A stretch of 64,000 nt of DNA, from contig JABAKD010000002.1 in assembly GCA_012845835.1 (NCBI GenBank), forward strand, positions 27,950,710 through 28,014,709, written 5' to 3'. Below are positions 2,333 through 62,960 of the stretch, in pieces. This DNA is from Undaria pinnatifida (taxonomy: Eukaryota; Sar; Phaeophyceae; Laminariales; Alariaceae). Below the pieces are notes generated by a model. That model did no database searches. It was not told where the DNA came from and saw only the letters and a program-made list of their open reading frames with translations. Numbering within the stretch: position 1 is the first letter of the stretch; every line of letters starts with the position of its first letter. The position numbers were made by a program, and so were the translations under genes.

Positions 2333-2509
2333 CAGCGCCTTTGTTTAATACTACCAGGTATACACAGACTATGAGCATCTCGTGTACATTACAATAATAA
2401 AGACGCCAGATCGTTCATTGTACGCGGCCGTGGACTGGCTGTGTCGAACGTGCCGTTGTTGGTTATATAGAACTTACCCACTGGCCCACGTAGTCACTTA
2501 TATAGAACT

Positions 2510-2681
2510 ATACCCACTGGTCCACGTAGTTATTTCGGAAAAAAGCGGAAATATGAAGCCGGTGTGGTTCGACCCCACGACATACTCGGAGTATATTTTT
2601 TGTTGGTTACATAGTCTATAGAACTACCCACTGGCCCACGTAGTCACGTTGGTGACTACGTAGCTCAGTGGGTAGTTGTTA
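2510..2681. mobile_element. tRNA-like SINE fragment, copy 1
   Basis: Near copy of the block at 3250-3400. It has a T-arm-like stretch (the complement contains GGTCGAACCACACC, a degraded B box) and two facing A-box-like ends, 'CCCACTGGCCCACGTAGTCAC' on one strand side and 'GTGACTACGTAGCTCAGTGGG' on the other, joined head to head. This copy has lost the perfect B box, so it is not a functional tRNA. Confidence 0.55.
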
Positions 2682-3035
2682 TAAGGCTTAGTTTGGGTAA
2701 GCTATTGGTTAACCGTTTGCAAGTGGTCAAACGGACTAATACCCCACCATGGCGTCGTCGACAGACCATGTTTTTTTTGGGTCGTTGGTTCAAATCCCAC
2801 ATCTCCACCATAATAATACCTGGTACACTTTTTCAGACGTTCCCCATGTCGAACTTGAAAAATACTCTCCCCGCTATATCCAGGAATTGAAACGGCTTGG
2901 ACAATTGAAAGGTCCGCCGGTATGTCCGGCCGACCTGCTATCCCGCCGTTTCAGGGGGGGAGAGTGTTATAAGGCTTAGTTTGGGTAAGCTATTGGTTAA
3001 CCTTTTGCAAGTGATCAAACGGACTAATACCCCAC
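2682..3035. repeat. Repeat unit bounded by two copies of a ~70-bp segment; 3' part shared with 15.18-15.37 kb
   Basis: The segment starting 'ttataaggcttagtttggg' and ending near 'ggactaataccccac' occurs at 2682-2750 and again at 2966-3035. Between them lie a tRNA-like stretch (GGTTCAAATCC, B-box-like, at about 2788-2798) and a ~130-bp piece that recurs inverted at 15250-15365. The tRNA-like stretch resembles the one at 17700-17850 (shared 'atggcgtcgtcg'). A SINE-like composite is the simplest reading. Confidence 0.65.
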
Positions 3036-3249
3036 TAATACCTTAACATAGTAGTGCTATTAATATATAAGTGCGATAGTCTAGACTAGACTATACCTGG
3101 TAGCCAACAAAATACTCTCACCGACTTCGTAACAGCGATCTCCCGGCCTCTCCCCCCGCCACGCACTACCGTAGTACTCAGGAGCAAACTATTATAACAA
3201 CCTGCCACGTCTCCAGAGCGCACGCTCGCAAAGACGTTATTTCCTTTCT

Positions 3250-3402
3250 TCTTTTCCCGGAAAAAAGCGGAAGCATGAGGTCGGTGGGATTCGAACCCAC
3301 GACAAATATATATCTTTTGTTGGTTATATAGAACTACCCACTGGCCCACGTAGTCACGTGACTGCGTAGCTCAGTGGGTAGTGCTATATAACCAAAAGCC
3401 GT
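3250..3402 (-). mobile_element. tRNA-derived SINE-like element, copy 2
   Basis: Read on the minus strand it has an A-box-like GTGGGCCAGTGGGTAG, an AT-rich spacer, and a perfect B box GGTTCGAATCC inside GTGGGTTCGAATCCCAC, which can form a T-arm. The A-box end is mirrored by a second inverted copy (3356-3385), giving a head-to-head arrangement. The spacing is too loose and the acceptor stem is missing, so I call it tRNA-derived rather than a tRNA gene. Confidence 0.55.
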
Positions 3403-3409
3403 CGGCCGC

Positions 3410-4640
3410 TCGCTCGCTCTCTCACTCGTGACCGTCGATCGTCCGTTCGCTCGGTAACTTGTCGACCGCCTTCGTTGATAGCGTCCCGTCGCCCCCTCGC
3501 CCGCTCGATCGCGCGTCGCTGTTGCGCAATGTATCTTCGTGTTATCTTCAATACTCGAGTAAATATTGCAGGCTACCTCCGCGCTTGGCCGGACTGCGAA
3601 GTGCCCGATTTTGCTCCTCCCGTCCGCTCTGTCCTACCACACCCCTTCATTCAAGCACGTTCAACACTGCTCAACCTGCAACACGGAGCGCAACAACGAG
3701 ACGAAAAAAGCAACGGTCAGATGCGTCAGTACCGCAGCTTTGTCCCACTTCCCCTTATAAAGAACGCCTGTAGCGCGAGGTGGAAACCCCACCTTTCTTC
3801 GTGCGGAGCAACCAGCAACCACAGCACGGAAACACGCAAACGTACAGTGAAGCTACGGCCATACTCTGTACCGTTGTGTTGGGGGACAAGGGTTTCCTCG
3901 ACCTGCTTTTCAGCACTGTAAGTTTCTCGTGCGTCATTGCTGCCGAACACTCTGTTCTTTCCTCAGGCATGACGACTATATAGGCATCCATAGCGACATA
4001 CCACCCCCTTGCGTTGTGTATGGTTAGCACTGCCCGCGATCGCCGCTCGTCTGTGAATACGCGTGATGAGTTGCTAACTCTGTCCTCGTAGTTAAGCATA
4101 TGGTACATTGTTGCCCCTGCGGCGAACGGTTGCGTTTGAGTAGAGGGATCGTTGTTGCTGATTCATGGTGTGTTGATTCTGTAAGGTATGCTACGCAAGC
4201 TTGCACGTTGCAGTTGCAGTACGTGTCGCCTGTTGCCTCCCCTTTATTGCGCAAAATGTGACTCGACGGCAAGATCATCACTCCGACCTTCCGACACACC
4301 ACAAGCTGCCCCCCTGTAGCTCGTACCTGTGCCATGTCGACGTCCTGTTCCCCCGCCCAGCATCCTTACAACGGATAGAGCGTACGACAGGATGCCAATT
4401 AATCCGTGCACCCACTCATTTGCCGTTCGACAAGATGACAGAAGGCTGACCGGCCACGTTATTTAGAAAAATGAAAAAAATATTACATCTGCAGCGATAG
4501 CCATATAACAGCAATTATTAATAGTCGCCCTGAAAGATGGCTTCCCCCTGTTCTTTATCCTTGTGTGTGTCTGTATGTGTGCTCCGTCTTCCTCTTGCCC
4601 TTCCGCGTTTTTTTTGCTTTTCCACCGCACTTTCTGTCCA
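3410..4640. other. Stretch upstream of the SET-MYND gene; no supported gene
   Basis: Several short open frames overlap here on both strands, but none shows a domain, a signal peptide or exon boundaries that I trust. It should contain the promoter and 5' UTR of the gene beginning near 4.8 kb. No canonical TATA or initiator stands out. Confidence 0.4.
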
Positions 4641-4645
4641 ACCAC

Positions 4646-4695
4646 ATGGATACCGGAACCAGCTGCGCGCCGGGTTGTGGCAAGCACGTACCAGG
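4646..4695 (+). CDS. Possible alternative first exon of the SET-MYND gene
   Basis: An ATG at 4646 opens 16 codons (MDTGTSCAPGCGKHVP) ending at CAG|GTAAGC, a textbook donor in phase 1. The acceptor GTCGCAG at 4790-4796 would join it in frame to codons running into the ATG at 4819, making a 101-bp intron. It is optional: the downstream ATG alone gives a complete protein. The donor lies inside one of the window's recurrent TACCAGGTA motifs, which could make the match coincidental. Confidence 0.3.
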
Positions 4696-4818
4696 TAAGC
4701 ACACCACCGGAACGGGTGTAACCCAGCCCAACTGGGCGCCAGTTAACGAGCGCAATCCGCTGGCACAGCCTGCAGCGAGCAGCCTGGAGTCGCAGGCGCT
4801 GTCTGCGAACGCGGTGCA

Positions 4819-29640: not shown

Positions 29641-29648
29641 GTGTGTAC

Positions 29649-29866: not shown

Positions 29867-30154
29867 AGAATACCTGGTAGTGGACAGGACATGACGCTGA
29901 CTGCCGTTCACCCCCAAGACTGGGAAAGAGAAACGCCGTTTAAGCTCTGAGCGCTTCAACTTAAAACCTGAAAAAAATGCACTCCACATCTTGCCCGAAA
30001 CTCGCGGAATCAGAGTTAACTTTTCGCATTGACAATGCCTTCGTCTCGTCGTCCTTTTTTTGCCCATTTCCCCGCACGAAAACTAGAACCTGCGGCGGCG
30101 CCAGGACGGAGCTGGTGCGCTTAATGAGACGGAGGTCGGACTCTGTCAATAGCT

Positions 30155-35748: not shown

Positions 35749-35751
35749 CCA

Positions 35752-37892: not shown

Positions 37893-37899
37893 AGAAGCA

Positions 37900-40377: not shown

Positions 40378-43300
40378 GTATGATCATGGTATGGTTCGAG
40401 GGTGGATATCGAGATCTACAGCTTGTCTTCGTACAGCTGTAGACTCCGTGCTATGATACTCGTGATATCTGTGCATTAGTAGGTTGCAGTATGCCAGAGC
40501 AGAGGGCACGTATGCTGCTGTCCTATGGGAACATGGGAACCGTGTACAGCTTAGTCTACAGCTGCCGGCGTAGTCTACCCGTAGACCCTTTTCTAGTCAG
40601 TACCAGGTACTGGTGTACGCTATTTCTGGACTGCTACTGTGTCAATAGTAAAGTCTGCCATGATTGAATACTGCTGTACGTAGCACTTTGTGTAGGGCTG
40701 TTCCATTCTGACCGTGGGTGATGCTGATTGATGATGATTGGTCAATATTGACATCTCCCAGCAATGTGTGGGTGGTGAGTACGATTACACAGAAAAAACC
40801 AACTGCTGTAGCATAGTCTACACTGGAATGGCTTGCCGTCATCACGAAAAGCACATAGTCTATACCCAACAGAGACAATCTTCCAGCTACAGCTACCAGC
40901 AGCATCTAAGTTGTGAGTTGGGGGACGTAATCGGAGAGTGTGTGAAACCACACCGGCTTACAGAGTTTGTGTGTGTTTGTTGTCGAAGTACGCTTGAACC
41001 ACACCACTCCACACACCCAGTATTCATACAGGAGGTCATCCATCTATCCAAACTTCACTCACCACACACAAAGTACGCGACAGCAGTAGTAAGAACTCAA
41101 GTGAAAATTGGGTTATTCTATACGATACCAGGTATGCGTCGTGTACAAGAAGAGTCTACGAGTATAGACTATGGATACAACAACGGCAGTAGTAGTAGCA
41201 TGAAGGGTACAACGGGAAAACATCATGTACGCGTGTGTGTGATATGTACCAGTATGTATTAGGTGTGATTTCGATGCAGCCTGCTACTACTGCTGCTGTC
41301 GCGTACTTTGTGTGTGGTGAATGACGTGTGGATAGATGGATTGTTAGATGAAAGGAGAACGTATTCTCGCACTGCTGTGTGGAGTGGTGTGGTTCAAGCG
41401 TACTTCGACAACCAACACACACAAACTCAGCAGGTCGGTGTGGTTTCATACACCCTTCGCGTACGTCCCCCAACTAACAACTTAGCTGCTGCTGGTAGCT
41501 ACTACTGCTGTAGCTCGGTGGTTGGTCTCTGTTGGGGATATGGGCTTTTCGTGATGATGAACAAGCCACTGCTGTATGTAATATTTCAGTGTATGCTACA
41601 GCAGTTGGTTTTTGCTATGTACTTGTACTCGCCAGCCAACAGGGAGATAGACGTCGAAATTGACCAATCATCAATCAACATCATCCACCACCAGAATGAA
41701 ACATTTTCATTCTTCTAGAACAAAGTGATGCCGCCGTGGATGACGTCACATGTCGACCAGGGGTTTGTGGCCAATCAGAAATCTCGTTTCAATAAAATTG
41801 GCCAATCAGAAAACTGCGGGCACCTTTTCTCTCTCTCTTGGCCAATCAGAAATCTCCTTTCAAAAAAATTGGCCACTCAGCAAAATGCGGGCACCTTTTT
41901 TCTCTCTCTCCGTTAATCTTCTTCTGGCAGTACCGTCTCAAAACATGCTCAATCACTGTTTTGATCGTACACACGCAGGTCGGGATCGTGTTTCTCTCGC
42001 CACCTCAGCTTGCTTTCCCTTGAACGCATCCTAAAACTCAGTAAAGTGAACGTCTTACATTGTCTACGAGCAGCTCGTTCGGCCTTGGTATGTCTATGGA
42101 TCAACGTCCTTCGCGGTATTGCCTCGTCCCTGGCTTCATTGCACGCTCGCAATTGTGCGAGTCTCACAGCAGCAGTAGCAGCAGCAGCAGCCTCGGTAGA
42201 CCTTCCACTCAAATTACACTGCTGTGGTTGACGCACACTGTGTAATGTCGCCCCTAAACAATGGCTGATTGGGTTAGAGCTAGAGGTTGGGATTGGGGTT
42301 ACGGTACGGATAGCAGTGACGTTCGTGTCGTACCCGGTGGCCCTCAACCATAGCGTGGAATATGCTGTAAGGTCCCCTTGAGGGTCTCTCTTGCCTTGCC
42401 TAACTTTAACTTGAGATTTCATCGAACCAAGGGCGCCACCTTTGCCTTTGGCTTTCGAAACTTCAACTTGAGATTTCATCGAACCAAGGGCGCCACCTTT
42501 GCCTTTGGCTTTCGACGGCAACCACGTGTACACCATGGCGCTTTAGCTGTTCACTGAATACCATATGCCTCCTGACCTCTACTTGTCTCTCTCCCGCCGA
42601 CCGTCTCAACACCCTCCTCAACACCCCCTCAACACCGCCTCAACACCGCCCTTAAAACCGCTGCAAATGTCAACACCAAAGATGTCGGGAGACAGCACTT
42701 TTACCCCTTGACAGACGGTGTCAAGGCAAATGCCTTGACAAACAGCCTTGACAGCAAAAAACAGGGGACACGATCGAAAAATACCCGCTTTCTGAAAAAC
42801 GCATGGCCATATTATTGAAAAAATGTTTTGTGCAAAACAAGCAAGAAAAACAGTGTGTGCGTTTTGTTTTATACCTTCAGATCTGCAGCAGTAGTAAATA
42901 TCTCAATTGAGCTATGTACAGCTGCCGCACACGCGCAGGGAGCAGGGAGTAGGGCAGTAGATAGCAGCGTACGCATGGAGACATTGGTAAGAGACAAGAG
43001 ACGGCCACGAAACGGTGAATTTCACATGTGTGTTCTACAGAATCTTGATATTTTATAAAAATAATACTAATGTCAAACGCGAACGAGCAACAGCATTATT
43101 AATACATTGGTTGCTCCTCCATGACGTTGGTGCGTACGAAATAATAAGTACATAGTGCTGCTGTACGTACGTCGCATGCACCAGGTACATGTTTGGTATG
43201 CATATGTCTCGCGTGCTGCGTGTTGCGTGGTGGTTGCGTTCGCGTTGTCGTCAGCCGTCATCCTGCCGCCTGCCGACGACCGCATCACAACTTCCACGTT

Positions 43301-46300
43301 TTCAAGTTGAATCAACAGAACAAATGCCAGATCTGTTGCTGGTGCCAACTACCTCTACTGCTGACTACTGGCTGCATATGTCTGGTGCAGTCTGCTGCCG
43401 CGGCCGCTGTGAGGCTGTTGTGCTGCTCGGCATGACAGCACGCACACCCAAATAACAAGTAACATAAATAGGGAGTTTCACCACAAATAATGGAGCTTTT
43501 TTCTACCGGAGATAGGGGTCATATGTCTAGACATGGAGATTTGCCTTAACAGACAGCCTTGACAGACAGACAGCTTGACATTGACATGTCTCCTGCCATC
43601 TTTGGTCGGTCAACACCGTTGCAACACCGTTGCAACACCGCCTAAACACCGCCTCAATATCTCCTCCACACCACCCAAACGTCTAACCACACCTCGACAC
43701 TGCCTCCACACCTTAACTCCAGGCAAGTTCTCGTTGGACGCTGGACACCTTCAGAGCGTTTGCCCCCCCGAACGTCGAGGTCATCGAGACCGGCTGCCAA
43801 GGCAGGTGATAAAAGTGATAAAACCACCGCTTGTCGGCAGCAGTTGTTAGTCCGAGTAGGGCTGTGGGTTGGTTGGGCCTGACGAGTAGATCTGCCATAC
43901 CCAGCCAATTGATAGCCAGTCAGCGACTTTTTTAGTCGGCCAATTCACAGCTCGAGGGATTCGTCGTTACGTAGCAGAGTTTAGCAGGGGCGACGTTGTA
44001 CTCTGTAGGAGAAGCAGCAGTAGCATTTGCGGCACCGTACGTTGAGGCGCACTGCGGCACGTTTTATGCTAATCGTGTTACGATAGATCCCTGCAGATTC
44101 GCGTATCTGTCGCATGTCATTGCGGACGGTCCGCTGTCGCACCCCTTTTTTACAGCCTCTACCGGACAGCAGATTCGCGCCAAGTCCATTCGCAGACGCT
44201 GATCATTGTTTTTGTCCGTCGGCGCACCTCTTGCAACAAGCAGCGCTTCAGGGTGTATTCGTGTTCTATGGGCACGACCGATCGTATGTACCTGGTAGCC
44301 GTTTCGGACTGTGTAATAGCCTCTTGAGCTCTAATTCGGGGACAATGCGGCCGCTCACTCCCCTATCCCCGAACCAATGACGTCCCCTGCTTTATGATTT
44401 AGTATATTTAAAAAATAAAAATACTCTCCAGCTGTGAGATCGAAGATTTCGTCGAAACACATCTTTGCAAGCCGTGTGTGATACTCAGATCGCGCGTATT
44501 ACTGGGTGCGTGTCTATCTCTCCACAATAATATCTCTCCACAAACCCCAGATTTCCTTGGTTCATTATTCCATACCGCAGAATGGTGTCGGCGGCAGGTG
44601 GTAGGCGAAGGCACGTTTTCTGCATCGAAAGTCTCTGCCTGCGTTCACGGCTTGTAAGATTGAATGGTAAAGTCGCCGATCGAATATGTAGCTGGTTGCA
44701 GGGTTCCCCTCCGGGGTTTGGTTGGCTTGAAATCACGGGGATGTCTCGATAGAAAAAGGGGGGGAGCAAATGGCGTTTCTCTGAATATCCGCTATAAAAA
44801 AAAAACTCTTGAAGACTAAATAAAAGTAACATGAGCTATAAAAATCTCTTGAAAACTAAATAAAAAAGTAATCTCGTGGCCAGAAGGCGAAAAAAAACGT
44901 GCAAGCAACACCCGACTATCGGTAGCGCAAACGAGTTTAACGCCTTAACGACGGGAAACCCTTTCTGGGGACACGTTTACTTGAAGTTAGTATAGGGAGG
45001 GATTTTGGGGCTCTAAAGGGGTCAAGCACAGCCTGTTAGTGACTTGTTGTGCTCTGAACATCTGACGAAATTATCGTGGAACCGCAGGTGTGGACAGGGT
45101 CCAAACGTGATGACAAGGCCGCCGGAGGAGGTGTACAACGGAGTGTCACAGCCAGCCACCATCGCTGCCATCATCGAGGTGCGGACGCGCGTACTTTTCA
45201 GAATTTGGGGGGCAGCGTTGCAGGGAGCAGGGTGCCGTCGTTAGCTCGATTATCGGTCAATAAGGAGGCGTGGCAACAACTGTAAAAGACCACGCAAAAA
45301 AAAAAACACAAGCACTACGATAGGGGTGGCGGCTTTTCTTTTTTTGGTTAAAACGTTTTTTAACCCTAAATCATCGGAAAAACGCGATTGTTTCTTGCAA
45401 TATGCTTGGTAGTAGCAGCAGCAGCAGTAGTAGTTGTAGTGTAGTAGTAGTAGTAGTAGTAATAGTAGTTGTTGTTGTGGTAGTAGTAGTAGCAGTAGTA
45501 GTAGTAGTAGTAGTAGTATTTGTAGTAGTAGTAGTAGTAGTAGTAGTAGTAATCGGTTGTGTACCCAAGCCATGGCATTATTCATTGGGTTGGGTTGTAC
45601 ATTCATTGAGTTTTCGTCCGCATCACTGTTGTTTCGGGCGAGGTGTGGAGTAGTGTATCAGTGACTACCCTCAGAAAAAACGGGTGCACCCTTTGCGAAC
45701 TGTTAGTACTAATAGTACTATAATAGTTGGTAGCAGTTAAGTATATTAGTACACTATCTATGAATACCATTAGTACTATCTATCAGCACCAACACTACTT
45801 GTAGCACTATTATTAAATAGTACCTGGTACTAGATAGTACTGCTAGTAGTGTTAGTAGTAGTATTAGTATTAGTAGTATTAGCCATATGCCCCAAGAGGG
45901 CGCTGTTGCGTTTGTTGTTTTCAGTGTTTTTCGGACGTGTTAATAGACACGAACCGGCGGGAAATGTATGTTTACTGTATGTATTTGTATATATACATAT
46001 ATTTATCGAAAAACAACATTGACTCCGTGTACGATTCCCTTATACCTCGTGCATGGAGGCGCGTTGGTAACCCCCGTCCGAGGTCCCTTCGGAGGTCCGA
46101 AACATTTTTTGGGGACACGCTAGGGACAGTTAGTATGTGATAGTTATTTCAGTGGTCAGTGGTAACAATATTGACCCTTTAGAATTTGACCGGTGCTTTT
46201 GAGGACGAACTGCTTGGAATTACCTCGTAGTGCAGTTTTGTTTTTGAAGGAATGTAAACGTTAACCTATCATACTCCCACCCTGCAAACTGCTTAAGGCC

Positions 46301-49300
46301 CTAAAAACTACGCTCTGCCTGTTCAACTTTTGTTTGTGCAGATCAGCTTCGGGTTTCCGGTTTCGGATGTGCTCGTGGGCGCCTTCGGCCACGCGTCGGA
46401 GGGAGACGTGCTTTATCAAAGGGGTTTGCACGCCGAGGCTTTGGCATGCTTCAGCCGGTGCATCGACACCGAGGGTGCATTCAACGGTGCGTAGCGGAGG
46501 GGACGCCTTGTCACGGTTGGTGCCACCCCCGTCCCCGCCGTAGATCTTGACGCAAGCAGGTCTGCTGTTTATTTTTGCGCGTAGTCATTCGACGGCAACA
46601 TCGTATTCAACTAGTCAACGGATAAGCAAGTCGCTAATCATACTTCCTCCATCGCGGGGGCGTGTTATAAATAGGTGCTCAGTGATATGTTTGAGCGATG
46701 TGTAGTAACAATTACCTTCTCGGTGTTGTTATGTTGCTGTCCAATCGACGTACCGTTCGAGCGGCATAACTTCTACCGTTTCGTACATGCGTATTTTTGG
46801 CGTTACGTTTCGGACGACATACGGATCCTAACGTACGATACAAGTATCTCTGTATAATCTGCGATCGTCACTCTCCCGCCCTGGGCATCGCATCACCGTA
46901 CCCGTGGTGTTTATGTCTATGTGCTGTTAGAGCCTGTTAAACGTATCTCCTGGTGCGCGCCTGTGCAAACCTGGTCGATCATACACTGACTGATGCAGTG
47001 CCATCTCGGATTAGCCTAACAGCTATCCCCGCCGACTCAATCTGATCGATATTCATGGGTCACCCACTGCCACATTAGAACAAACATGTCGGCGAAAGAA
47101 ACGCTCTTTTCGTGATTGTGCCTGACAAGTATGCGTGATTGTGCCGAGTTCCTTGCGGGGATAGAGTAGTCGCGCGGCCGCAGCCCGAGGCGCCGGAGTG
47201 TCGGGGGCATTCTTAGATCGGTGCATACTTGTAAATCCCCCAAATCTCTCATGAACCGATCGTAACACCCCGAATGATAGGTAGCTGCCAGCAGAGAGTT
47301 GCGCAAAATCGGGACGATAAACGTTTTCTCATTTTTTTTCCCCCAACACAAGACTAGCTTGGAAGTTTGTTTTTTTTGTCTACCCAGGGCAGAGGTGGAC
47401 GCCGAAAACCCCTGTTGAAAAAAAAAAACACTCAGGCATTCGAAGCGTCTTTCGCTATCGCTAGGAGAGACGCGTGCTACGATAGAGGTGCACCACTTTT
47501 TTTTTCTAATACTACCCCTCGACTTGGAAGCTTAAGATCTCTCCCGAAACTGATTTAAGAGAGAAGAAAAACAAAACTGCTGCTAGATCGGATGAAGAAT
47601 TCCCATGGCCTAGATGCACCGCGCGAGAACCGTGCAAAATCAGATGGCGTAAATTCCGACGGTTTATGGTTAAGGAGTCCCGTCATTCGAAAAACATTTT
47701 TTTCAGACGAAAAGTGCTACCTATATCGTAGCATGCGTCGGGGACATGTTACTGTCGACGAAACTGTGTCCGTCGAATGTCTTGTTTTATGTACTAGTTT
47801 TAGAGTGGGGAGTTCCTTGACGGCTCTCTGTGATGGGGCAGGAGCGCCGTCACCCGCCGTCTTTGATCACGTGATCACAGTTTTTGATACCAGGTAGTAG
47901 CTGTCATTGAGTCACGCTGCGTGGGTACCTCATTTCCCTCAGGTTCCTACGGCATTATGCGCTCGGTATCCCACGCCAAAAAACGAGATATGAGTAAAAA
48001 ACTGTACGCGCCACCTGATGAACAACCCTGACGAACAGCCCCATCGGCCAGGCACACAACGCATACGGTGTAAAGCATCTACGGAAAGTCCCAAAATATT
48101 GGCAAAATATTGGGCATGGTACAGCATTGTTGGTCTAATTGTGTTATAGTGTAGTTGAGGAGCCCCGCCAGTCCCAAGTATTTGGTTCAAAACATTCTGC
48201 CTCTATCGTTGCACCGCTACAGCATATAGTCTGTTCTCGCCCTATGGTGCCCTCACGCCCCCGCGTTGGAGTCGTTTTTTTTACGCCGCTTACCTCTGGC
48301 TGCTGTACCGGTGTTGTTTGATGCCGCCGACTGACTGCTGACCGCTGCACTGACTGCTGATTGTTGCACTGACTGCTGCAGACAATGGCAATGCACTAAG
48401 CGTGGCGAAGGTCAAGCAGTCTAGCGCCATGCGCATGGTGGCGAAGGACATGGGAAGGAGAAATCCGGGCTCTGCAGAGGTCTCCACCGCCCTTGAGGTA
48501 CGTCAGGGCTAGCTGATCAGGGTGCCGTGGGAGGAGAAGGGAAGAAATCTGTGACCACCCGCGGCTAGTTCTGTAGGTCGCTGACGGTAAAACCGCTGAC
48601 GGGTTGAGCCGGAGAGTAAAAGAGAGGATTAAATACATATGCACATGTATGATTATTCATGAGTATATATGAGGGTGCCGAAAATAGGGTTGCAGGTGTG
48701 TTATGGTGCTAGCGATGCTAGCGGTGCACTAACTTGAGCCCAAAACCCCACCGAAAACTGACTTTGACGAAAAAAGGACTCTCGATCCGATGACCCATCC
48801 CATGGTTTATTGATAAGCAGAATGCAGGCCAAGGATCGTGTTTACAGTAGGTGTCCCCGAAACACGCGCACGTCCTGATTTTAGGCGTTGTGATGCACGA
48901 AAGCGTTTCAGCTTAGCGATGTATGTTCGGACAAGAATGGTCGTGCTCGGACAGGAATGCGTAACACACGACGGAGCAGTTTTTGTTCAGTTTTTTTGAC
49001 GCTCCTCGTTGGCGTTTGCTTTGGCCTTTTTTTGTTGGTGCTGTGGAGCAGGATGCCGAGGTTTCGGCCCGAGAAGCCATCAAGCTGTGGCGGGCCAACA
49101 CTTCTGCGTGGCTGCAGCTTTCCGATGTGTTGGTGGACATGGTGAGGGTAACTCCCAACAATCGATACCCTAAGAGTGGTAGTGTGCTGTTTTTCCAGTT
49201 GCCTTCCAACAATGTACAGACACATGCTACATCGTAGAGGTGTACCATTTTTTTTTTCGTTGTGTGAAGTTTATTGATCACTTGATGGGCTCTATACACC

Positions 49301-52221
49301 GCGAGTAAGCTGAAAGTGCAGCCCGATTTGCCAAATCAATGTCTTGATTACTTAAAAAAACGTGCATATTACGAATCAAAAGAATGACATCAGTAATGAA
49401 ATTTCACCGATTTCGTGAATAGGTTAATGTTCATGTTGCGCAACGAGAATGGCATTAATGAGGTTCCGACGATTTTATTGATAGGTTAACGTTCATATTG
49501 CACAACAAGAATGACATCAATGAAATGAAATTTGGACGATTTTGGGTTAAGATGGGTTAAGGAGCCCCGTCATTCAGAAAAAATGTGTTTGCCCAAAAAG
49601 TGCCAAGATCTATCGTACCGCGCGTCTACAGATGCTACAGATGCACGGTGCATGCTTCGTTCCAATATAAAGCTATGTATTGCTCATGTCTCTCTACCCA
49701 TGATATAATACGTGCTTGTGATCCTATGTACCGATGTTTATTGCTTGCGCCATAGGGGTGTTTATTGGTTGGCAAGGATCCAGATCTCGCGCTGTTGAGG
49801 TTTCAGAACTGGCTGGGGCGGGCTTACTTGCAGCGTATGTGCCACGGTGTGCGGCTTTAATTACGTATGTGTGGATACCAGTCCCTATTCCCTAGATTGT
49901 ACAGCCTCCTTATCACTATAATCCTTCAAGATCATCCTGGCATCCTGGCTCCTCGAGGCAGATTCTGATGTGTTTCCTCGTCGTTGACCCTCGAGCGTGC
50001 GGTTGCACACATAACCCACTTCGGTGTGTCTCCACACTAACACCTCCATCTGAGAAAGAGAAACCTGCGAAGGGACCACCGTCTTACAATTGGCGTCGTC
50101 GGCAGGACAATGGGGACTGGTATCCACATGTGCAGTATTCAATTTCTAGTGGTATTTCGTGTGCCTTTCGATAATGTGCAGTGCAGAATCCATGCACGTA
50201 TAAAACAAATATTCATGTATCTTTCCGGCGGTACACAACGAAAAAAAAAATGGATTGTTGTGGCCTACATTTTGTGATTAGTTTATTTTTTCATCACAAT
50301 GTGACAGACGTTTGCTCTGACTCGCCATCAGACAGGGCAACCGTTTTTGGATTTTAAGTTTGTGTGTGCAGCCGTCTCTGAGCTACTGTACGATAGCAGT
50401 GTCGATAATGCGATCCACAATACATAGAATTGCGGCCCACGGTTAGGCGACGCAGCACATGAACAAACTCATAACCGGTACCTAGTGTATACCGCTGCAG
50501 CAAGCGCACGCTTAGCGCCGCGGCAATAAGGGAGTGACAAAGTCTGTATACACAGCTCTGGTTCTTGGAGCCGCCGGTGCCGCCGATTAGTTTTTGTAGA
50601 TAAATAATCATGCAGTCTCACCTGGTTGTAGACACAGCTATTTTATATATTTGCTCTAAGAACGTCAGCTGTGAGTTCGACAATTTTATGGTCGATACTC
50701 ATCTTTGCAAGCTGGGTAGTACACCGGTCGCCCGTTTATAGTAAGTTTTCATGAGGCGAAACCTAATCAATCGTAATAATGGATATTTAAGCGTGCGATG
50801 AACCATGAAGACATTAACGTGTTAGGTGACGTGAAAATTATTATTAATTGCATTTTGTTTGTGGGTTCCGCCAATGTATTGTTTTGCCGATAAATAATCA
50901 AACAGTCTCGTCTGGTGTAGACGTAGCTGTTTTATTTTTGGGTGCCGCCGATTACTGTTTTGTCGATAAATAAACGAGCAGTCTCACCTGATGTATACGT
51001 AGCTATTTCGTCAGTGGGTGCCGCCGATTTGTCTTCGTGGATAAGTAATCAAGCAGTCCCACCTGGTATATTCGTAGCTTGTTTTTTTTGGGTGCCGCCG
51101 ATTATTTTTCGTCGATAAATGAGTCAAGCAATCTCACTTGGTATACGTATACGTAGCTATATATATCATTTAGGGGGCTGTATAGGCCTTGGACCAGATT
51201 CCACGAAATGATTGAAGTATGCTTGACGTTAACTACCCATTTACCACTGCCAAAAACTATCCTGCGCTAACTGTAAATAGCTTTGTTCAAAAAAACAACG
51301 TGGGTGCAGTTGGGACGGGGACTTCCATCATAAACCCTAGCCCTCACCACTATCACCCGGGTTTTTTCTCGGAGCGAAGACGTGACGAGGAGTTAAGTGA
51401 ACGTGGGCTTTCAACCTTTTTGTTGAGAACGGGGCCAACTTTGTTGAAGCCAGGCCAAATGGTAGACTTTACTGTTTATGGTGTTGTTGTACGCCAGGGT
51501 TATTGACGCATGTCTTCTGTGGCCAGCCACGGACAAGGTTATGGCGTTGGAGTTAATCTGAGAACAGGATTGCCGACGTTTTATCTGCTCGCCCATTCAC
51601 CCCTCTGCGCCGCCTCCCCCCCCTCCCCAACCCCCCACCCCGACAACAACGGCGAAGGCAGCGTTCGTTTGGATGTTTACAACCCTATCCCCGACCGGCT
51701 GTTTTTTTTTTTTTCGAATTAATCTGTGGTGAGGAGTTAGTGTCGGCAATCAACCATTTTGTCCAACATGAGCCGAATCATAAACACTACCAGGTACCAG
51801 GTATTATGAGTAGTCTAAAGCAGTGAAATCTGTTGATCGTTTTGAAACAACCATGGGAGTGTGTTACGGCGGCCGGTCGCGGGAACGCAAAAAAGTACGG
51901 TGGGTCGTGGTCTCATTCGCGGCGCATCGGGCGCAGAGAAGTGGGGGGTATCTATGTGGGTTTCGGCATGAACGTTTCATTACGCGGACGCTTTCATTCG
52001 CGTGAGAAGAACGCCATTATACTGTTGCTTACAGACGTACTGACCGTTCATTCGCCCCCCCCGCCCCTCCCGGTCCGGACGACGGCAACGCTTGTTTCGG
52101 TTCTTTTTCCCAGGGGCGGGCCGACATAGCCTTGGAGCTGATGGCACAATTGAAAGCGGAGTTTCCGGACGCGAAGTTCGAGGCGTCGGAGAAAGCGGCT
52201 CGGATACGAAACAGCCGGTAG
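40090..52221 (+). CDS. Thioredoxin-like [2Fe-2S] ferredoxin fused to TPR repeats, probably plastid-targeted; 8 exons, 330 aa
   Basis: Exons 40090-40377, 43723-43805, 45088-45178, 46342-46486, 48382-48497, 49052-49141, 49777-49848 and 52114-52221 (phases 0, 2, 0, 1, 0, 0, 0) give 330 aa. Residues about 51-73 are a hydrophobic signal segment ending GPGASAF (71-77), the ASA|F cleavage site of stramenopile plastid preproteins. A thioredoxin-like [2Fe-2S] domain follows, with cluster ligands C89 and C94 (VHVCTNTSCRK) and C121 and C125 (GCQGRCGQGPNV), the usual CGxGPN signature, and YNGVSQPATIAAIIE at its end. From about 172 the protein is helical with TPR character (YQRGLHAEALACFSRCID; NWLGRAY then DIALELMAQLKAEFP). 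Family members bind a [2Fe-2S] cluster for electron transfer or redox sensing, and the TPRs suggest a protein partner. Exact function is unknown. The transit peptide after ASAF is unusually short. Confidence 0.85.
40704..41698. mobile_element. Large foldback: ~400-bp inverted arms, ~190-bp loop
   Basis: The left arm 40704-41095 pairs with the right arm 41283-41698. Landmarks are 'tgattgatgatgattggtc' and its complement, 'aaccaactgctgtagcata', 'tcacgaaaagc', 'ttgggggacgta', 'gtcgaagtacgcttgaacc' and 'aagtacgcgacagcag'. Identity is high with small indels. It lies in intron 1 of the ferredoxin-TPR gene. Open frames on either arm are mirror images of each other. Confidence 0.9.
41767..41908 (+). 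repeat. ~71-bp tandem repeat with CCAAT-like motifs, 2 copies
   Basis: Each unit reads 'ttggccaatcagaaatctc', then 'aaaattggcca.tcag', then 'tgcgggcacctttt' and a CT tract. Three GGCCAATCAG and one GGCCACTCAG are present. Confidence 0.85.
42402..42515 (-). repeat. 57-bp tandem repeat, 2 copies, open on the minus strand
   Basis: The two units are nearly identical and a multiple of three long. On the minus strand they encode two copies of SKAKGKGGALGSMKSQV within a longer open frame (42536-41949). No partner exons were found on that strand; inside intron 1 of the ferredoxin-TPR gene. Confidence 0.8.
42590..43660. repeat. Inverted repeats flanking ~0.8 kb, with outer CAACACCGC arrays
   Basis: The left arm at about 42670-42740 ('caccaaagatgtcgggagac', 'gtcaaggcaaat') is inverse to the right arm at about 43530-43610 ('gtctcctgccatctttggt', 'atttgcctt'). 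Outside each arm lie short arrays of CAACACCGCC-type units (42605-42660, 43612-43665), both in the same orientation. Confidence 0.65.
43723..43805 (+). CDS. Ferredoxin-TPR gene, exon 2
   Basis: Acceptor TTAACTCCAG ends at 43722. Encodes ASSRWTLDTFRAFAPPNVEV then IETGCQG, carrying the third cluster cysteine. Donor GGCAG|GTGATA, phase 2; the split codon is Arg124. Confidence 0.85.
44405..44512 (+). repeat. Fragment of the ~400-bp dispersed repeat family
   Basis: Shares 'agctgtgagatcgaagat', 'gtcgaaac.catctttgcaag' and 'gatcgcgcgtatta' with 15400-15480 and 27520-27590. Confidence 0.75.
44941..45021 (+). mobile_element. TTAA-target miniature element, 81 bp, intact
   Basis: TTAA (44937-44940) before and TCAA (45022-45025) after. 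Starts CGCCTTAACGACGGG and ends CTCTAAAGGGG. Only 66 bp upstream of exon 3 of the ferredoxin-TPR gene, within intron 2. Confidence 0.85.
45088..45178 (+). CDS. Ferredoxin-TPR gene, exon 3
   Basis: Acceptor GAACCGCAG ends at 45087. Completes Arg124, then CGQGPNVMTRPPEEVYNGVS and QPATIAAIIE, the C-terminal half of the thioredoxin-like [2Fe-2S] fold. Donor GAG|GTGCGG, phase 0. Confidence 0.9.
45309..45698. mobile_element. ~270-bp TIR element copy with an expanded TAG microsatellite
   Basis: Left end 'gcactacgataggggtggc' resembles the TIR. The interior has 'ttaaccctaaatcatcgg' and 'gtgtacccaagccatgg'; the right end is worn. A (TAG)n tract at 45412-45550 sits in the position where other copies have short T-rich DNA. 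Confidence 0.65.
46342..46486 (+). CDS. Ferredoxin-TPR gene, exon 4 (first TPR)
   Basis: Acceptor TTTGTTTGTGCAG. Encodes a linker and ASEGDVLYQRGLHAEALACF, a TPR-like helix pair. Donor ACG|GTGCGT, phase 1. Confidence 0.82.
47470..47738. mobile_element. ~270-bp TIR element, full length (269 bp)
   Basis: Terminal inverted repeats: left ACGCGTGCTACGATAGAGGT, right end 'ctatatcgtagcatgcgt'. The interior CCATGGCCTAG core and 'ttaaggagtcccgtcattc' are shared with 55565-55836. No coding capacity. Confidence 0.8.
48382..48497 (+). CDS. Ferredoxin-TPR gene, exon 5
   Basis: Acceptor CTGACTGCTGCAG. Completes Asp203, then NGNALSVAKVKQSSAMRMVA and so on, ending STALE. Basic helical composition. Donor GAG|GTACGT, phase 0. 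Confidence 0.8.
49052..49141 (+). CDS. Ferredoxin-TPR gene, exon 6
   Basis: Acceptor GTGGAGCAG. Encodes DAEVSAREAIKLWRANTSAW then LQLSDVLVDM, a TPR-like helix pair. Donor ATG|GTGAGG, phase 0. Confidence 0.82.
49222..49626. mobile_element. ~270-bp TIR element, copy with an internal ~67-bp tandem duplication
   Basis: Left end 'acatgctacatcgtagaggt', right end 'ctatcgtaccgcgcgt'. Inside, 49385-49545 repeats 'gaatgacatcaatgaaat'-type units about 2.5 times. Confidence 0.65.
49777..49848 (+). CDS. Ferredoxin-TPR gene, exon 7 (boundaries uncertain)
   Basis: DPDLALLRFQNWLGRAYLQR is the first helix of the last TPR. Start: AAG acceptor at 49774-49776 in phase 0; TTTCAG at 49801-49806, also in phase 0, would give a shorter exon. 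End: GGT|GTGCGG at 49848/49849 is the only GT donor that keeps the TPR frame of exon 8. The better-looking GTATGT at 49835 is phase 1 and breaks it. Confidence 0.6.
50575..51160 (+). repeat. ~73-bp repeat, 5 copies
   Basis: Units start near 50575, 50863, 50938, 51017 and 51090. Each reads 'gggtgccgccgatta', then 'tcgataaataa', 'caagcagtctcacctggt' and 'gtagct', with small changes. Four are tandem and one lies 215 bp upstream. All in the last intron of the ferredoxin-TPR gene. Confidence 0.85.
51219..51506 (+). CDS. Unassigned open frame inside the last ferredoxin-TPR intron, 95 aa
   Basis: MLDVNYPFTTAKNYPALTVN through LRTGPTLLKPGQMVDFTVYG. Not repetitive and reasonably protein-like. It directly follows the 73-bp repeat array. 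No domain recognised; could be a remnant of an inserted element. Confidence 0.22.
   Translation: MLDVNYPFTTAKNYPALTVNSFVQKNNVGAVGTGTSIINPSPHHYHPGFFSERRRDEELSERGLSTFLLRTGPTLLKPGQMVDFTVYGVVVRQGY
52114..52221 (+). CDS. Ferredoxin-TPR gene, exon 8 with stop
   Basis: Acceptor GGTTCTTTTTCCCAG ends at 52113. Encodes GRADIALELMAQLKAEFPDA then KFEASEKAARIRNSR and TAG. It completes the TPR begun in exon 7: Tyr288 followed by the conserved small residue at the right distance, except for a three-residue excess at the junction. Confidence 0.78.
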   Translation, partial: GRADIALELMAQLKAEFPDAKFEASEKAARIRNSR

Positions 52222-53050
52222 CACAACATCACCACCAAGGAGGGATACACCATCACAATGCCGCCGGCAAGAAAAGATATACCTGGTACCGCTCTGGACA
52301 TAAATATAGAGACCTTCTTGGAGCAATAATATGAATCCGAATGGTCCTTAAATTTCCGTCCAGAACCTAGACCGAAGTTTAGAGGCCGTTGAGTATTGGT
52401 ATGAGAACCAAACGGTCCTTGAGAATCGTCCGCGGGTGTATGTTTATTACAAGACAATTTTCGTGCGGGCTGGGATATCCTCGGATCACATATAGCCTCG
52501 TCGTGCGTGCGGCGTAGGTTTGGCACGCCGCCTGCTTGTTGCCCCTCGGTGTACTCGAGGGAGCCAATCCGCGGTGCAGCCCACTCAATCGCCATCGAGT
52601 TTTTCGAAGAGCGATTTTACGTTTCCTACCGACATACATTTTGTGGGTCGCACGTTCGCCCTCGAGGTTTTCGAGAAGCGAAGTTATAAACATAACTAAG
52701 GTTACTTTATGTCTAGAGTGGCCGCTAGGACAAGCCCAAGCAGGCCAGCAGCCGGCTTTTAGCGCCAGAAGCTAACAGCAGGCGATGATGCACAGCACGA
52801 CTCGCCCCCAGTAGGCGGCCTTCTAGCGCCAGCAGCTGAGGTCACGTGCGCACGGAACGACTAGGCCGTGCTTCGTCAGTAATGACAGCGATTATTCCCC
52901 GTTTTTTTGGGTCGCATTTCGACCAAAGACACACCCAGCGGTGATACTGGAATGGCAGCAGAAGAATCCCGCTTCCCCTAGTAAAGCTGCTCCCTTCACA
53001 CACCCATCACAGCCACGGGTGAACATGCACAACCCGCTTCGCCGACATAG
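52222..53050. other. Downstream of the ferredoxin-TPR gene; no supported gene
   Basis: Presumed 3' UTR and intergenic DNA. A short imperfect duplication ('agcgccag.agct') lies near 52760 and 52817. Confidence 0.4.
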
Positions 53051-53273: not shown

Positions 53274-53329
53274 TCGGCGAAGAACGGGGGGGGTCCCGTC
53301 CACCCACGAAGAGAACGATGGCCGAAGTG

Positions 53330-54002: not shown

Positions 54003-54802
54003 TAGGACGCATCCTACGATGGAGGTAGCACGTTTTCGTCTGAAATGGTTTCTGAATGACTGGACTCCTTAACCCCGAAACGTTGCAAATCTTGGCCATT
54101 TTTTCTTTTTTTGCTTTTCACAACCATGGACCTAACCCTAACCCATACGAAGTACCGGTCGAGAAGTGCCCTCTCTTGGCGTCCCACTGGGGTGAAATGG
54201 TTGAAAAAAAGCACCACATGGTGTGTGTATCACTGCAAAACCGTCTGAAATCTAGGCCATTTTTTTTTTTTTTTTTTTCTGATTTTTGTTGTGTGCTACC
54301 CAGAGGCCGTGGGACGTTTCATCCGGTAGCAGTTTTATTTTTCTCCAAATCAGTCTTTGCCTTAGAGAGATCTTAGGCTTCCACATTGAGGAACACCTCA
54401 GAGAAAAAATGGTGCGCACCCCTGCACATCTATCTTTAGCACGCGTCGTTGGCGGGGACAAATTACCTGGAAGACGCGTGCTACGATGGAGGTATTGAGG
54501 TATACCTGGTATAACTTTTTGGCCAAAACATTGTCTGAATAATATGAAGGGTCTCCTTACATTTTATCAATCTAAAATCGTCGGGGAAAATGCAAGTATG
54601 CTTGTTTTTCAAATATTTTTTTGTTGTGTGCCCCTAAACAGCCAAGGGATCTTGGTTCATTGCCTTGCACTTTCATTCTATGTTCAAATCGATTTCAGTT
54701 TTTTTGGGGGGGGAGGGGAGGTATGGAGCGCCGCTCGTGAGGAAAAGTCAGAAAAAAAAATGGCTTAAACCCTCCAAGATGCCGTATCATCATAGCACGT
54801 GC
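54003..54802. mobile_element. Two diverged copies of the TIR element, adjacent
   Basis: Copy a about 54003-54449 (left 'gcatcctacgatggaggt', right 'tttagcacgcgtcg'). Copy b about 54472-54802 (left 'acgcgtgctacgatggaggt', right 'atcatcatagcacgtgc'). Both share 'gtgtgcta/ccc..gcc..ggga' cores with the 47- and 55-kb copies. A CCTAACCCTAACCCA stretch lies in copy a. Confidence 0.6.
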
Positions 54803-55564: not shown

Positions 55565-55836
55565 ACGCGTGCTACGATAGAGGTGCACCACTTTTTTTTC
55601 CAACACTACCCCTCGATTTGGGAGCTCAAGACCTCTCCCAAAAACTGATTTGGAAAAAGATAAAACTGCAACCGGATGGACGAAAAAAGCCCATGGCCTA
55701 GGTACAGTACACAGCGAGAATCATGCCCAAAACAAAATGGCCTGTTTCCGACGATGTTGGGTTAATGAAGTGAGCCCCGTCGTTTAGAAAACCAATTCCA
55801 GACCAAAAGAGTGCTACCTTCTATCGTAGCGTGCGT
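55565..55836. mobile_element. ~270-bp TIR element, full length (272 bp)
   Basis: ACGCGTGCTACGATAGAGGT at the left and 'ctatcgtagcgtgcgt' at the right. Best-preserved copy with 47470-47738; the uninserted 'gggagctcaagacc' and 'gggttaatgaagtgagcccc' sites are seen here. Confidence 0.82.
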
Positions 55837-55904
55837 CCTGACATGACAAACAAAAAAGAGCGTCTCGTTCCTTAATCTATTACCAAGAGCAGCCTGTTTT
55901 GGGC

Positions 55905-56490
55905 GCGTGCTACGATGACAGGAGTCTAGTGCTCACGTTCGAGTCATCTCACAGTGGGGGTTGCACTTTTTCTGGGCCATGTGTTTTTTCTGACCTTCTG
56001 ACCGGTTGAGCTCTTCTCCAGCGAGGAACTTACCGGTTGGTCCGGTAATCTTCCGGGTAGATTTGCTGTTGTAGGACGCTACCACAGTCTGTAGTAGTAG
56101 CGCGTACAAGTGTTGGTCGGACTGCGCGAGAGCGAATTCTTTCGACGTCCTGTCTTGTGGGTCGTAGATGAATGGGAGCTCACCTCATGTGTCAGGAGCT
56201 CAGAAACTCCCGCAGCATAGCCCTAGCTGTCGTAGGATGACTACTTGTGTTTCTAAAGAGGCATTTTGTTTTTTCTGAATGACGGGGCTCCTCAACCCAA
56301 AATTGTCGGAGTGAAAAAGTCATGATTGTTTTGAAAAATACCGTTTCTGTGTAAAGAATACATGGCATTGGGCAAAATGCGATTGTTCATCGGTAAAATT
56401 GATACCTGGTATTCCTTTTCGTCATAATCAGTTTTTGCCGTGGAGGCAGTGGAGGGGTACAGAGCTCCTCAAGTGCCGAGCCTCAGACAA
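55905..56490. mobile_element. Mosaic of TIR-element and foldback fragments
   Basis: Starts with a TIR-like 'gcgcgtgctacgatgacagg', passes through a piece of the 34-kb foldback arm (56110-56215), then TIR-element interior ('ctgaatgacggggctcctcaaccc'). Confidence 0.55.
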
Positions 56491-56797
56491 CTAAAGATAA
56501 ACCTCTGCCGTGGCTTGTGTCTTTGCTTCGTGTAGCCAATCCCATATATAATCGTCAACTTCATTCGCTATTTTTTTCCTCTCAAGTCCCAATACGGTTA
56601 ACAAAAGGTACCAGGTATAAAGAAAAGTGGTATGGGCCTCCAGCAAATGAATGGTGTAAAAAAAAAATGGGACAAAAAACTACTCTTGAAATAAAGGCGG
56701 TCAAGAAATGGCTTGAAACATATCGGACAAGAAGAAATGACTGATGCAAACACAGGCCGGGCAAAGAAATGACTGAAAACAAAGAACGAACAAGAAA

Positions 56798-58754: not shown

Positions 58755-59375
58755 GGACCACAGGCCGGCGCAGGAGGCCCCATCCAATCCAATACTTACA
58801 TTAAATGATACCAGGTACACGGTAGTGAGACAGAATACAACAGTAAAATGGCGATCCAACCGTTATGCTCAAACTTGTCACAAATAATGGCACCATAGAA
58901 ACATATCGAAATGTCTCGGAATTTGCATTGCAAAAGAGGTCAGTTCTTTTTTTCGCTCATGAAAGCTCGGGAGTGGACCTGGTCACATTTCTTGAGACCA
59001 TCCCACCCACCCGGCGGTAGGATTATTAATAGCATCCTTATACTTCGTTACCCAGATCATTTACAGGTACTAACTCCGCGCAGAGTATGGGATACGCTAG
59101 TCCACTCAGCGCGGGGGGAAACACCAGACGAGACCTCCTGCCCAGCGCAGGAGGCCTCGTCCAATCCAATACTTGCATCAAAATAACGAATTATCTGGTC
59201 CAGTGAGCGACCGCTGTCCAGTTGTAAACAACAGCTCTGTCTGTTCGCGTGCGTGTTCTACCAGCCTGCCAGCACCGTCCCCTGCGGTATCCACTTGGTA
59301 TCCCCACAAGCGCAAACAACCAAACAATGCCAGCTGCTGCTGTCAAAAGAAAATGATGCACGGTAGTGAGACAGA
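58755..59375 (+). repeat. Local duplication of two short segments
   Basis: 'gcgcaggaggccccatccaatccaatact'-type sequence occurs near 58769 and 59145, and 'cacggtagtgagacagaa.acaaca' near 58816 and 59349. Confidence 0.75.
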
Positions 59376-60111
59376 ACACAACATAAATCTTATCCTCCGG
59401 CATACCAAGTATGTGGGTAAAAACGAAGCCTACGCTTACCACAAATCCACAAATCCATAAAAATCCACACATATCACTCTGCCAATGAACTTCTAGCACT
59501 ACTGCTGTTTTTAGCAAAAACATTAAATACAAGAGGGTGCTTTCCCCATCTGCCGGAGGTTAAAGAAACAAAACAAAAACAAAAAACAAGAGGGTGCTTA
59601 CAATACTTACGGGATGAGCGGTTACCTGGTATATGATACGTATCGTGTGTCAAATTAAGTCTGCCGACGGCTTCACACGGATAATTTGCCGTTGAAATCC
59701 GCAAACGCGCAATAGAATGATGGTTGCTCGCTTTCGAAAGGGGCGCTGACTACCAAGGGTGGGTTTTATAAATTTCAGCTTTCGTACCTCTCCATACGAG
59801 TCATACATTAATAGTACCGGAGCGCAGAATGATGATGGACCGAAGTCTCCATTGACAAAACCCAGAGGATTCATAAATCTCCAAAGGGCAGTCTTCTAAG
59901 AATAAAAAACGCGCCACCGGTGTATCGCGCAGCTTGCAAAGATGAGTATCGACCGTTGAACTGATCGAACTCATACCTACCAGCAGCTGACGTGTGCATG
60001 ATATTTAAAACGTTTCAAAATACAAAAAAATATATAATTATAGTTATACGTATATATTCCCGCTCATGTTGGTCGTTTGGGGGTTGCGTCGCCTTCGTTC
60101 GACCCAGGCTG

Positions 60112-60420: not shown

Positions 60421-60870
60421 TTCACCATACCACAAGCAAAAATAAAAGTTCCTTCCACAACAAACGAAAGTGCAACTCGCCAAAAAAAAAAAAACACACA
60501 TTCCGACGATTTCGGAGATAAGGAGTCCGTTTCGTCAAGAAAATAGATAAGCCACATTAACAAGTGCTGCCTTAATCACGTAGCACTCTTCAATTCAACA
60601 CTAGCCGAGGAGGGCATCCGCTAGCAACCACAGTGGGTACCCCGATTCAAGTGCGCCCAGGATAAAAGAGCATTCGGGGCTTGAGCGCGGTAAAATCGGC
60701 ATGTCCCGCCTATGCTATAAGCTCTATATTTCCCACTACACATAAGAGCAATGTGTAGTTAAGAGCGCTTGTTTCGGCTTGTCCAGTGATACACATTATT
60801 AGACATTTCCAACCATTTTACCCCAGTGATGTCATCAGGGGGCATTTCGACCGGTATAGTATTTCCTATT

Positions 60871-60888
60871 GGTTAGGGTTAGGGTTAG
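60871..60888 (+). repeat. Interstitial telomere-type repeat
   Basis: GGTTAGGGTTAGGGTTAG, three units of TTAGGG on the plus strand. Confidence 0.85.
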
Positions 60889-61011
60889 CTAGCATGGTTG
60901 AAAAAGGACAAAAAAATCACAGGGCGTTCTTACATCGGGGTACCCACTGCTGAAATATTACTACTGTACAGCAGTTTGCGTGTAACGTTCAATGGCAAAC
61001 ACGGCGGTTTT

Positions 61012-61110
61012 ATGTCCGCCTGTAGAGCCCGTGAATATCAATGGCTAATTATGTCTTCTGCTAATATCATAAAAGCGATACCTCATTTGTTCTGCGAAAT
61101 TGAGAGAGTA
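61012..61110 (+). repeat. Dispersed repeat shared with SET-MYND intron 1
   Basis: 'gtagagcccgtgaatatcaatgg' and 'cctcatttgttctgcga..ttgaga' match 6434-6520. Confidence 0.7.
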
Positions 61111-61959
61111 TGCTGTTCATCGCGCCGAGAGAACAGGGAACAAAAAAACAGGTATGGTTACTTCGTTACGGGTAGTTACTCGTAGTAGCAAGAAACCAGC
61201 CGTACCAACAAAAAAATGTCTTTTAAGCTAAATGGGTTCCCTATCCCCGGCATGAAAAAAGTTCTCAACACAATGTGGAAACCCTTACATAAAACGGGGA
61301 TGGGCACGATTTATCCCCTCCCGAGGATGGTACTGACTAACCCCTGGTATATGGTGCCTTAATTTCGCGTTTATAGGAAACTTTAACTGCTGAAAATCAG
61401 CAACTACCTGAACGCGATTTCATACGTATACATTATCGAAAAAAAAACACGAAGGCCATCACCCAAGCGGCGTCTGCAGGAGCACCACCACATTGACCCA
61501 CCATCATATAGCTCCTCCCTGGACAGAGCCCCCCGCCGTTGCACCAGGAGGTACAGAAACGGAAGCTGCCGGAGCCGAAAAATCACACACGACACCGTAC
61601 AAGAGAGGTCCAACAGGTGGTTGCGGGGGTCAATGCCACAAGAGGGGGGGGATGGCACATGGACAACGGTGGAAGGACAGATGCCTCTTGTCAGTCTTTT
61701 ACCGGCGGGTAATGAGATCAAAGTCAGGCGAGGTACGGTATGGGTGGGGGTCTCACACGCGCATACTAGTCGCGGGCGTAGCAAGTCGGACAACGGTAAA
61801 ACGTTCTTCAGCAAACTTACACCCCTTGGAACACTCGATAACTAAGCAGAGAAAGAGGGTGCCATATGCACCACAGGAGAGACCCGGAAACGCACGAAGA
61901 TACTGCCAGAACAGCACGAGATCCACATAAACTGGGGCTCTACCTCACGGTAGGCCGAA

Positions 61960-62960
61960 CTTGACGGCTGTTTATTACCGGTACCTGGCAGTTCGGCAGT
62001 GAGGTGAGGCAAGCACTAAAAACTGAGTCAAGCTTTATAACCCCCCCCCCCCCCCGCAAACACATGTCGAGCCACAAACGCGCCAGGGGGGTGCAAAGAT
62101 TGCGGAACTCCGCAAAATTATCGCAAGGGGCTAACTGTATTAAATTGTAATACTTGTTCTTACTTTTCTCGTGTTTATGGTCTGGCTTGTTTTGTTGTGT
62201 TCTCGTACCCGGTACGCTAGCATTTCACTTGCCTTGCCTTGATTCATTGCGATTGGATGGTTTACTCTGTTTCACAGTCTGTGACCACATAATAATAAGT
62301 TGTACAAGTATCTCTCTAAGATGAAGAATCGGCACGGACTCTGGGTGTACTGATGATGATGTCGTTGAGTACATAGAAAGAACGGTTTGATGTGAAGACT
62401 AGTGAAGACAACACATACTTAGCCAACTAATAACTATTCGGCGACTTGCTACCAAGTCTGAGTAGAAATAAGTAACACGTTTACATTGAAGCCACGTTTA
62501 CATTGGCTCCTAATATTAATAGTGACTTATATTTAGACCCAGACAGGTATTACTTGGGAAAGCCTACCAACTGATCTTTTTTTAAAAATGAAACACAATG
62601 TGAGCCACGATTACACCAATCAAGTACATGCCAACACGCAATTTTTACCGCAAGCAACTACAGCAGTATCATAGCAGTAACTAGCGATAATACCATAATT
62701 ACTCGGCGACTTACTACTAGTACCTACCAGGTACAATACTATTGGAATAGTCAACCAACTCAAAGCCCCGATGGAACAGGAAAACAGAGAACAAACAAAA
62801 CACGGGAAAGGGAGAAACCGAAAAAGTGTCATAGACCCAACAACCAAAATAAACAGGGAAAAGAGAACAAGACGAAGAAAATAGGAAAACCACAAAAACG
62901 CGTCACAGACCGAATAAAAAAAGGGGAAAAAAAAGAGCAAAAACACACACAATGGGGGAC
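61960..62960. other. No supported gene
   Basis: A 16-nt C-tract at 62041-62056, AT-rich DNA, then an A-rich stretch (62750-62960) whose minus strand gives a hydrophobic but spurious frame. Confidence 0.45.

Follow-up and report, generated by a model that had tools for sequence, protein, structure and literature searches.

The question raised by a 64,000-base stretch of the brown alga Undaria pinnatifida (contig JABAKD010000002.1, positions 27,950,710 to 28,014,709; hereafter the window) is how the 9-bp near-palindrome TACCWGGTA (W = A or T) came to be present so often. The window has a GC content of 0.492 and contains 20 exact copies, compared with a mean of 0.38 and a maximum of 2 in 100 dinucleotide-preserving shuffles. 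An earlier note had reported this over-representation, and all 20 of its coordinates are exact. The analysis described here indicates that each TACCWGGTA is very probably the excision footprint, or scar, of a TA-targeting cut-and-paste transposon of the IS630/Tc1/mariner/pogo-like kind, whose departure converts TA to TA-CCWGG-TA.

The motif was counted in the whole assembly (511,146,479 bases, 68 contigs) using the same pattern read backwards as the control. TACCWGGTA occurs 85,263 times, approximately once per 6 kb, and the control 3,475 times, leaving 81,788 (about 82,000) scars above the control count. The genome-wide count that the earlier note had proposed as a check is thus far from expectation. 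Ten 10-kb loci chosen by place, four of them adjoining the window, contained 25 copies in 100 kb, and the window plus these loci (164 kb) contained 45 exact copies versus 1.10 expected. Copies are denser in the window than the genome mean would give (20 versus 10.7, P = 0.007), as expected if the window was chosen for the motif. The motif-free interval between 4.7 and 29.9 kb pointed out earlier is real and has a probability of 0.015 at the genome-mean density, judged post hoc; no meaning was drawn from the distribution of the motif along the window.

A dispersed repeat family was rejected as the source of the motif because the flanks of the copies are unrelated. The earlier observation that flanks differ between sites was borne out in that no repeat is shared, although a weak symmetric preference is present nonetheless. 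When both sides of 53 sites were pooled and compared with all TAs, A was found at +1 in 4% versus 20% and T at +6 in 51% versus 26%, with positions +7 and +8 richer in A/T. These data reveal a symmetric insertion-site preference around TA. The pogo-type transposon Passer targets TA in a palindromic, AT-rich setting in the available text of its description (PMC9976928).

The form of the motif was analyzed by screening 183,192 bases for TA-x-TA palindromes with half-cores of up to 5 bases, trimming overlaps and calculating expectations from a third-order Markov model. The screened set includes eight short loci chosen because they carry the motif, and the window itself was also picked for it. TA-bounded CC-W-GG was observed 53 times versus 1.17 expected. 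Next, AT-repeat palindromes aside, was G-W-C (TAGWCTA) with 49 versus 10.86 expected, and its G/C-centered counterpart TAGSCTA was at background (6 versus 7.24). Genome-wide, this second type was found 107,556 times compared with 41,033 for the reversed control. TAT-S-ATA was also high (71 versus 25.5), an excess ascribed to TATGA arrays; one such array of the 5-bp unit occupies window positions 24558-25034 (~95 copies, 93% match). TACWGTA was present 42 times versus 24.7 expected. It is a weak scar class because TACSGTA is likewise up (28 versus 17.9), some TACWGTA copies sit in an array at window positions 22759-22965, and one copy (sampled locus L018, position 2626) differs from its partners by substitution. 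The palindromic core thus has an A/T center, as expected of an excision footprint.

Comparison of scar-bearing sequences with related copies was used to define the state of the site before the event. Sampled locus L009 contains three tandem copies 190 bases apart with identical flanks; those at positions 2330 and 2520 read GTGCGTACGTTGG and the one at 2710 reads GTGCGTACCTGGTACGTTGG. The difference is a clean gain of exactly 7 bp at TA, and two of the three copies are empty. The pre-event site in L009 is therefore a single TA to which the scar adds the core and a second TA. A comparison of 68 TAGWCTA sites yielded 5-bp gains at window position 40856 and at position 684 of locus L033; position 584 of L007 was a partial case, window position 2612 differed by 7 bp, and the sites in L013 and L014 were loose matches. 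Among 57 TACWGTA sites, window position 55703 was a 5-bp gain relative to three of four partners. The interpretations offered in the earlier note were a mutational hotspot, a site of protein binding, and an insertion target or excision footprint. The footprint is favored by the 7-bp empty copies, the A/T-only center and the nesting of scars within scars described below. A pre-existing target sequence is excluded at sites with empty copies because the motif was absent there before the event, and none of the findings requires a protein-binding site.

Each scar provides two TAs, and scars also abut one another. Doubles of the form TACCWGGTACCWGGTA, in which two scars have one TA in common, occur 3,654 times genome-wide and the control twice; the overlapping pair at 51788 and 51795 noted earlier is real and belongs to this class. 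The central bases of the first 50 doubles listed (first 13.1 Mb of one contig, counted by hand) were equal in 34 and unequal in 16 (p = 0.015 versus equal odds). The unequal-center doubles favor separate events, and the surplus of equal-center doubles may be due to 7-bp slippage. Slippage was ruled out as the source of single scars since their flanks are unrelated, and it leaves the unequal-center doubles (16 of 50) unexplained too. Hybrids of the form TAGWCTACCWGGTA, in which a CCWGG scar abuts TAGWCTA, occur 770 times (367 + 403) and the control once. Independence predicts 661 hybrids from the sample-based number of TAGWCTA or 395 from its genome excess (107,556 minus 41,033), so the observed count is 1.2-1.9 times expectation. 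Hybrids contain two scar types and are therefore not duplications of one unit.

These comparisons bear on a different explanation, that TACCWGGTA is a functional or selfish palindromic site for protein binding or modification whose copies were retained or amplified by selection or biased repair. HIP1, the highly iterated palindrome of cyanobacteria, is a precedent, since it too is a short palindrome that is greatly over-represented among unrelated flanks, and the strong genome-wide excess and unrelated flanks of TACCWGGTA agree with such a site. A HIP1-like motif would be expected to arise by base change or to be conserved in place. Few sites were tested, and the motif in L009 is instead a clean 7-bp insertion unit at TA. 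The nesting with a second scar type also differs from HIP1; TAGWCTA is an unrelated palindrome of the same TA-x-W-x-TA form, and the two abut through a common TA 770 times versus once. A palindromic site of this kind is accordingly considered highly improbable.

Relatives of TACCWGGTA with one mismatch were also in excess, numbering 58 versus 28.1 expected in the 164 kb. The three such sites cited in the earlier note do exist, and their true starts (18887, 43179 and 51060) are one or two bases from the positions it gave. Under a simple decay model, the one-mismatch excess of 30 relative to the exact-copy excess of 44 corresponds to a mean scar divergence estimated at about 8%, which suggests that scars are old on average. 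Decay by substitution indicates that scars are inherited. This property argues against the scars being products of programmed DNA elimination, in which the life stage that was sequenced would have lost internal segments bounded by TA, as happens to TA-bounded segments in ciliates. The many scars and the unseen element suit such a process, and a single male gametophyte clone was the source of the Undaria DNA, according to the available text of the genome report (PMC7058681). Doubles and hybrids require successive events, and transposon families with TA ends exist in the genome. Programmed elimination is given almost no credence.

Excision footprints remain the favored explanation, and the mechanism would be of a known kind. 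An element would insert at TA and duplicate it. At exit, the transposase would cut within the element, a few bases from each end, and leave identical 3' overhangs on both flanks. Overhangs of CCWGG (5 nt), or of CCWG (4 nt) that are then filled in, would pair with each other at all but the central position, an A.A or T.T mismatch, and TA-CCAGG-TA or TA-CCTGG-TA would result from end joining. Joining two identical, near-self-complementary overhangs across one such mismatch should give a palindrome of odd length, bounded by TA and centered on A/T. The CCWG(G) ends, the overhang length and the origin of about 82,000 scars from a single family are inferred.

The letters of the Sleeping Beauty/Tc1-type footprint are TAC(A/T)GTA. 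In Sleeping Beauty excision the nicks fall three nucleotides within the element and produce the 3-nt overhangs that give rise to the footprint, and the published account, as far as available, has the same TA on both sides, core derived from the element's ends and A/T center arising from overhang mismatch (PMC7827188). The Undaria scars differ in having a core of 5 bases rather than 3, in numbering tens of thousands and in the element not having been found. Like Passer, they occur in a genome with DDE_1 transposases and at TAs in a palindromic, AT-rich setting; unlike them, Passer footprints are given as 0-4 bp in the available text (PMC9976928). Stowaway/Osmar5 elements in plants likewise leave short terminal fragments between two TAs at empty sites, and the available description has several variable footprints per locus (PMC1925063), in contrast to one uniform palindrome genome-wide in Undaria. 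Three features are out of the ordinary, namely how many scars there are, the length of their core (5 bases) and how often CCWGG scars abut each other. No report of TACCWGGTA or of such genome-wide excision scars was found in the open-licence literature searched, and the available main text of an Ectocarpus transposon paper (PMC12477816) has 0 occurrences of the word "excision".

Several observations weigh against the footprint explanation. A differing partner copy was found for just 4 of the 65 CCWGG sites compared; L009 is clean, window position 2817 is supportive but not clean, position 2687 of L014 is too loose a match, and window position 45821 lies in a microsatellite. Fourteen partner rows were shown for 2817. 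Two of these (L028 and L030) have the 7-bp gap, each with a further 1-2 bp missing nearby, and the other 12 have a 10-bp gap, which was attributed to the variable ATA run next to the site. The TAGWCTA site at position 3693 of L016 differs from its partners by substitution and carries no insertion. The G/C-centered TACCSGGTA is also above expectation in the palindrome screen (6 versus 1.04), which was ascribed to decayed scars. Homotypic doubles are 7.5-fold more frequent than independence allows (~486 expected from ~27.5 million TAs and 81,788 scars), and a simple excision model does not predict this excess. Finally, no CCWG(G)-ended element was found at a TA in the loci sampled, nor among 7 continuations read of the 1,223 matches described below.

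The excess of doubles admits a more specific proposal, held tentatively and judged somewhat short of an even chance. One TA transposon, now lost from the genome or nearly so, may have cut with an unusually long stagger (4-5 nt), undergone tens of thousands of heritable excisions and tended to re-insert into its own scars. Re-insertion is suggested by the 3,654 self-abutting scars versus ~486 expected, with hybrids at only 1.2-1.9 times expectation.

A source was sought among transposase genes and at incomplete scars. Profile matches to DDE_1 (PF03184) numbered 82 in the genome, and three open reading frames from such loci match PF03184. DDE_3 (PF13358) gave 8 weak matches, 7 of them above the cut-off, and Transposase_1 (PF01359) gave none in the genome or in the control genomes. 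Pogo-like transposase genes are thus present, and no CCWGG scar is traced to any of them. None of three DDE_1 families (L039, L040 and L041) was found with CCWG(G) ends. In the 183 kb there were 52 TACCWGG without a following TA versus ~42 expected at equal base frequencies, several of them in shared repeats. Beside existing scars, TACCWGGTACCWGG without a following TA had 1,223 matches (639 + 584) compared with 12 for the control and ~250 by chance. The seven continuations read after it all differ from one another; our guess is that the matches beyond the chance number are mostly decayed doubles. The element responsible for the CCWGG scars is rare, extinct or missed by the small sample.

The missing element leaves room for a TA-targeting transposon without CCWG(G) ends, in which case processing of the ends or a fixed fill-in would have shaped the core. 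Footprints vary in other systems, and the available texts give 0-4 bp for Passer (PMC9976928) and 1-4 bp for Stowaway-like end fragments (PMC1925063). Against this, so many copies of one symmetric, A/T-centered product are what self-complementary ends would give by pairing directly, and end processing is regarded as unlikely.

One pogo-like DDE_1 family, family A (L039; G000 C35:9100000-9103600), had 194 first-look candidates. The 39 other top-scoring rows match at 98-100% identity, mostly across 0.8-1.0 kb, which indicates recent movement, and end at L039 positions 3504-3521, mostly 3506 or 3507. Six ends of three copies read TA followed by CAGTAGGGGTCC, also written CAGTAGGGGTCCCGG (CAG ends), between unrelated flanks. 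The flanking TA of one copy (L042) belongs to a TACCTGGTA scar. By the overhang rule, family A should leave TACWGTA.

Other candidate elements were also considered. A TA-CCAG-ended element at window positions 40894-41497 was dropped because the inverted repeat runs on past those ends; the imperfect repeat (~0.7 kb) spans 40840-41560, and a TAGTCTA scar distinguishes its two arms. A putative start of L041 at TA followed by GTC would fit TAGWCTA, but all four other copies examined share sequence upstream of it, which makes this point doubtful as the end of the family. An element with TA followed by GACGTATTTAAGCC at its ends, in L011 and L014, also fits TAGWCTA and counts as one insertion only because both sit in one larger duplicated stretch. 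The DDE_3-like family of L023 has TGGTCCGTGCACAAC ends at TA, which do not fit CCWGG. This second TA-flanked family (L019-L026, e.g. L023 1-2031) has ~1.75 kb common to four copies at about 99% identity and a long open frame, reported at 771 aa, whose DDE_3 match is only weak. Inverted repeats TACACAAGATAACACACC at L040 2906-2998, near a DDE_1 gene, and at several places in the unrelated L032 are perhaps another TA-flanked family.

Within the window, unstranded exact matches place TACCAGGTA scars at 2352..2360, 4689..4697, 37281..37289, 40601..40609, 41126..41134, 47888..47896, 56609..56617, 58809..58817 and 62725..62733. TACCTGGTA scars lie at 3094..3102, 29871..29879, 44289..44297, 52280..52288, 54503..54511, 56403..56411 and 59623..59631, at 45821..45829 in a GTA-rich stretch where partner copies are uninformative, and at 2817..2825, where gaps in partner copies add to the exact match. 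The last is inside a copy (2667-2968) of a ~290-bp repeat; members of this family are often in tandem, and the genome has 2,607 first-look candidates for it. The double scar TACCAGGTACCAGGTA, two exact copies with one common TA, occupies 51788..51803. The second scar type is represented by TAGTCTA at 40856..40862, a 5-bp gain at TA versus the other inverted-repeat arm, and by a weaker case at 2612..2618, where the partner copy lacks 7 bp and not 5. The third and weakest type is TACAGTA at 55703..55709.

A census of cut-and-paste transposons usually relies on copies still in place. In this genome it is the exits that have left a record, at approximately one CCWGG scar per 6 kb and with a second type in similar excess, and the scars serve as an odometer of transposition. 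They also supply insertions of 5 and 7 bp naturally and in large number, with frame shifts to be expected wherever these fall in coding sequence, and they may provide markers for kelp phylogeny. If re-insertion by a vanished element is the correct account, the Undaria genome keeps a decaying record of cut-and-paste activity without the element.

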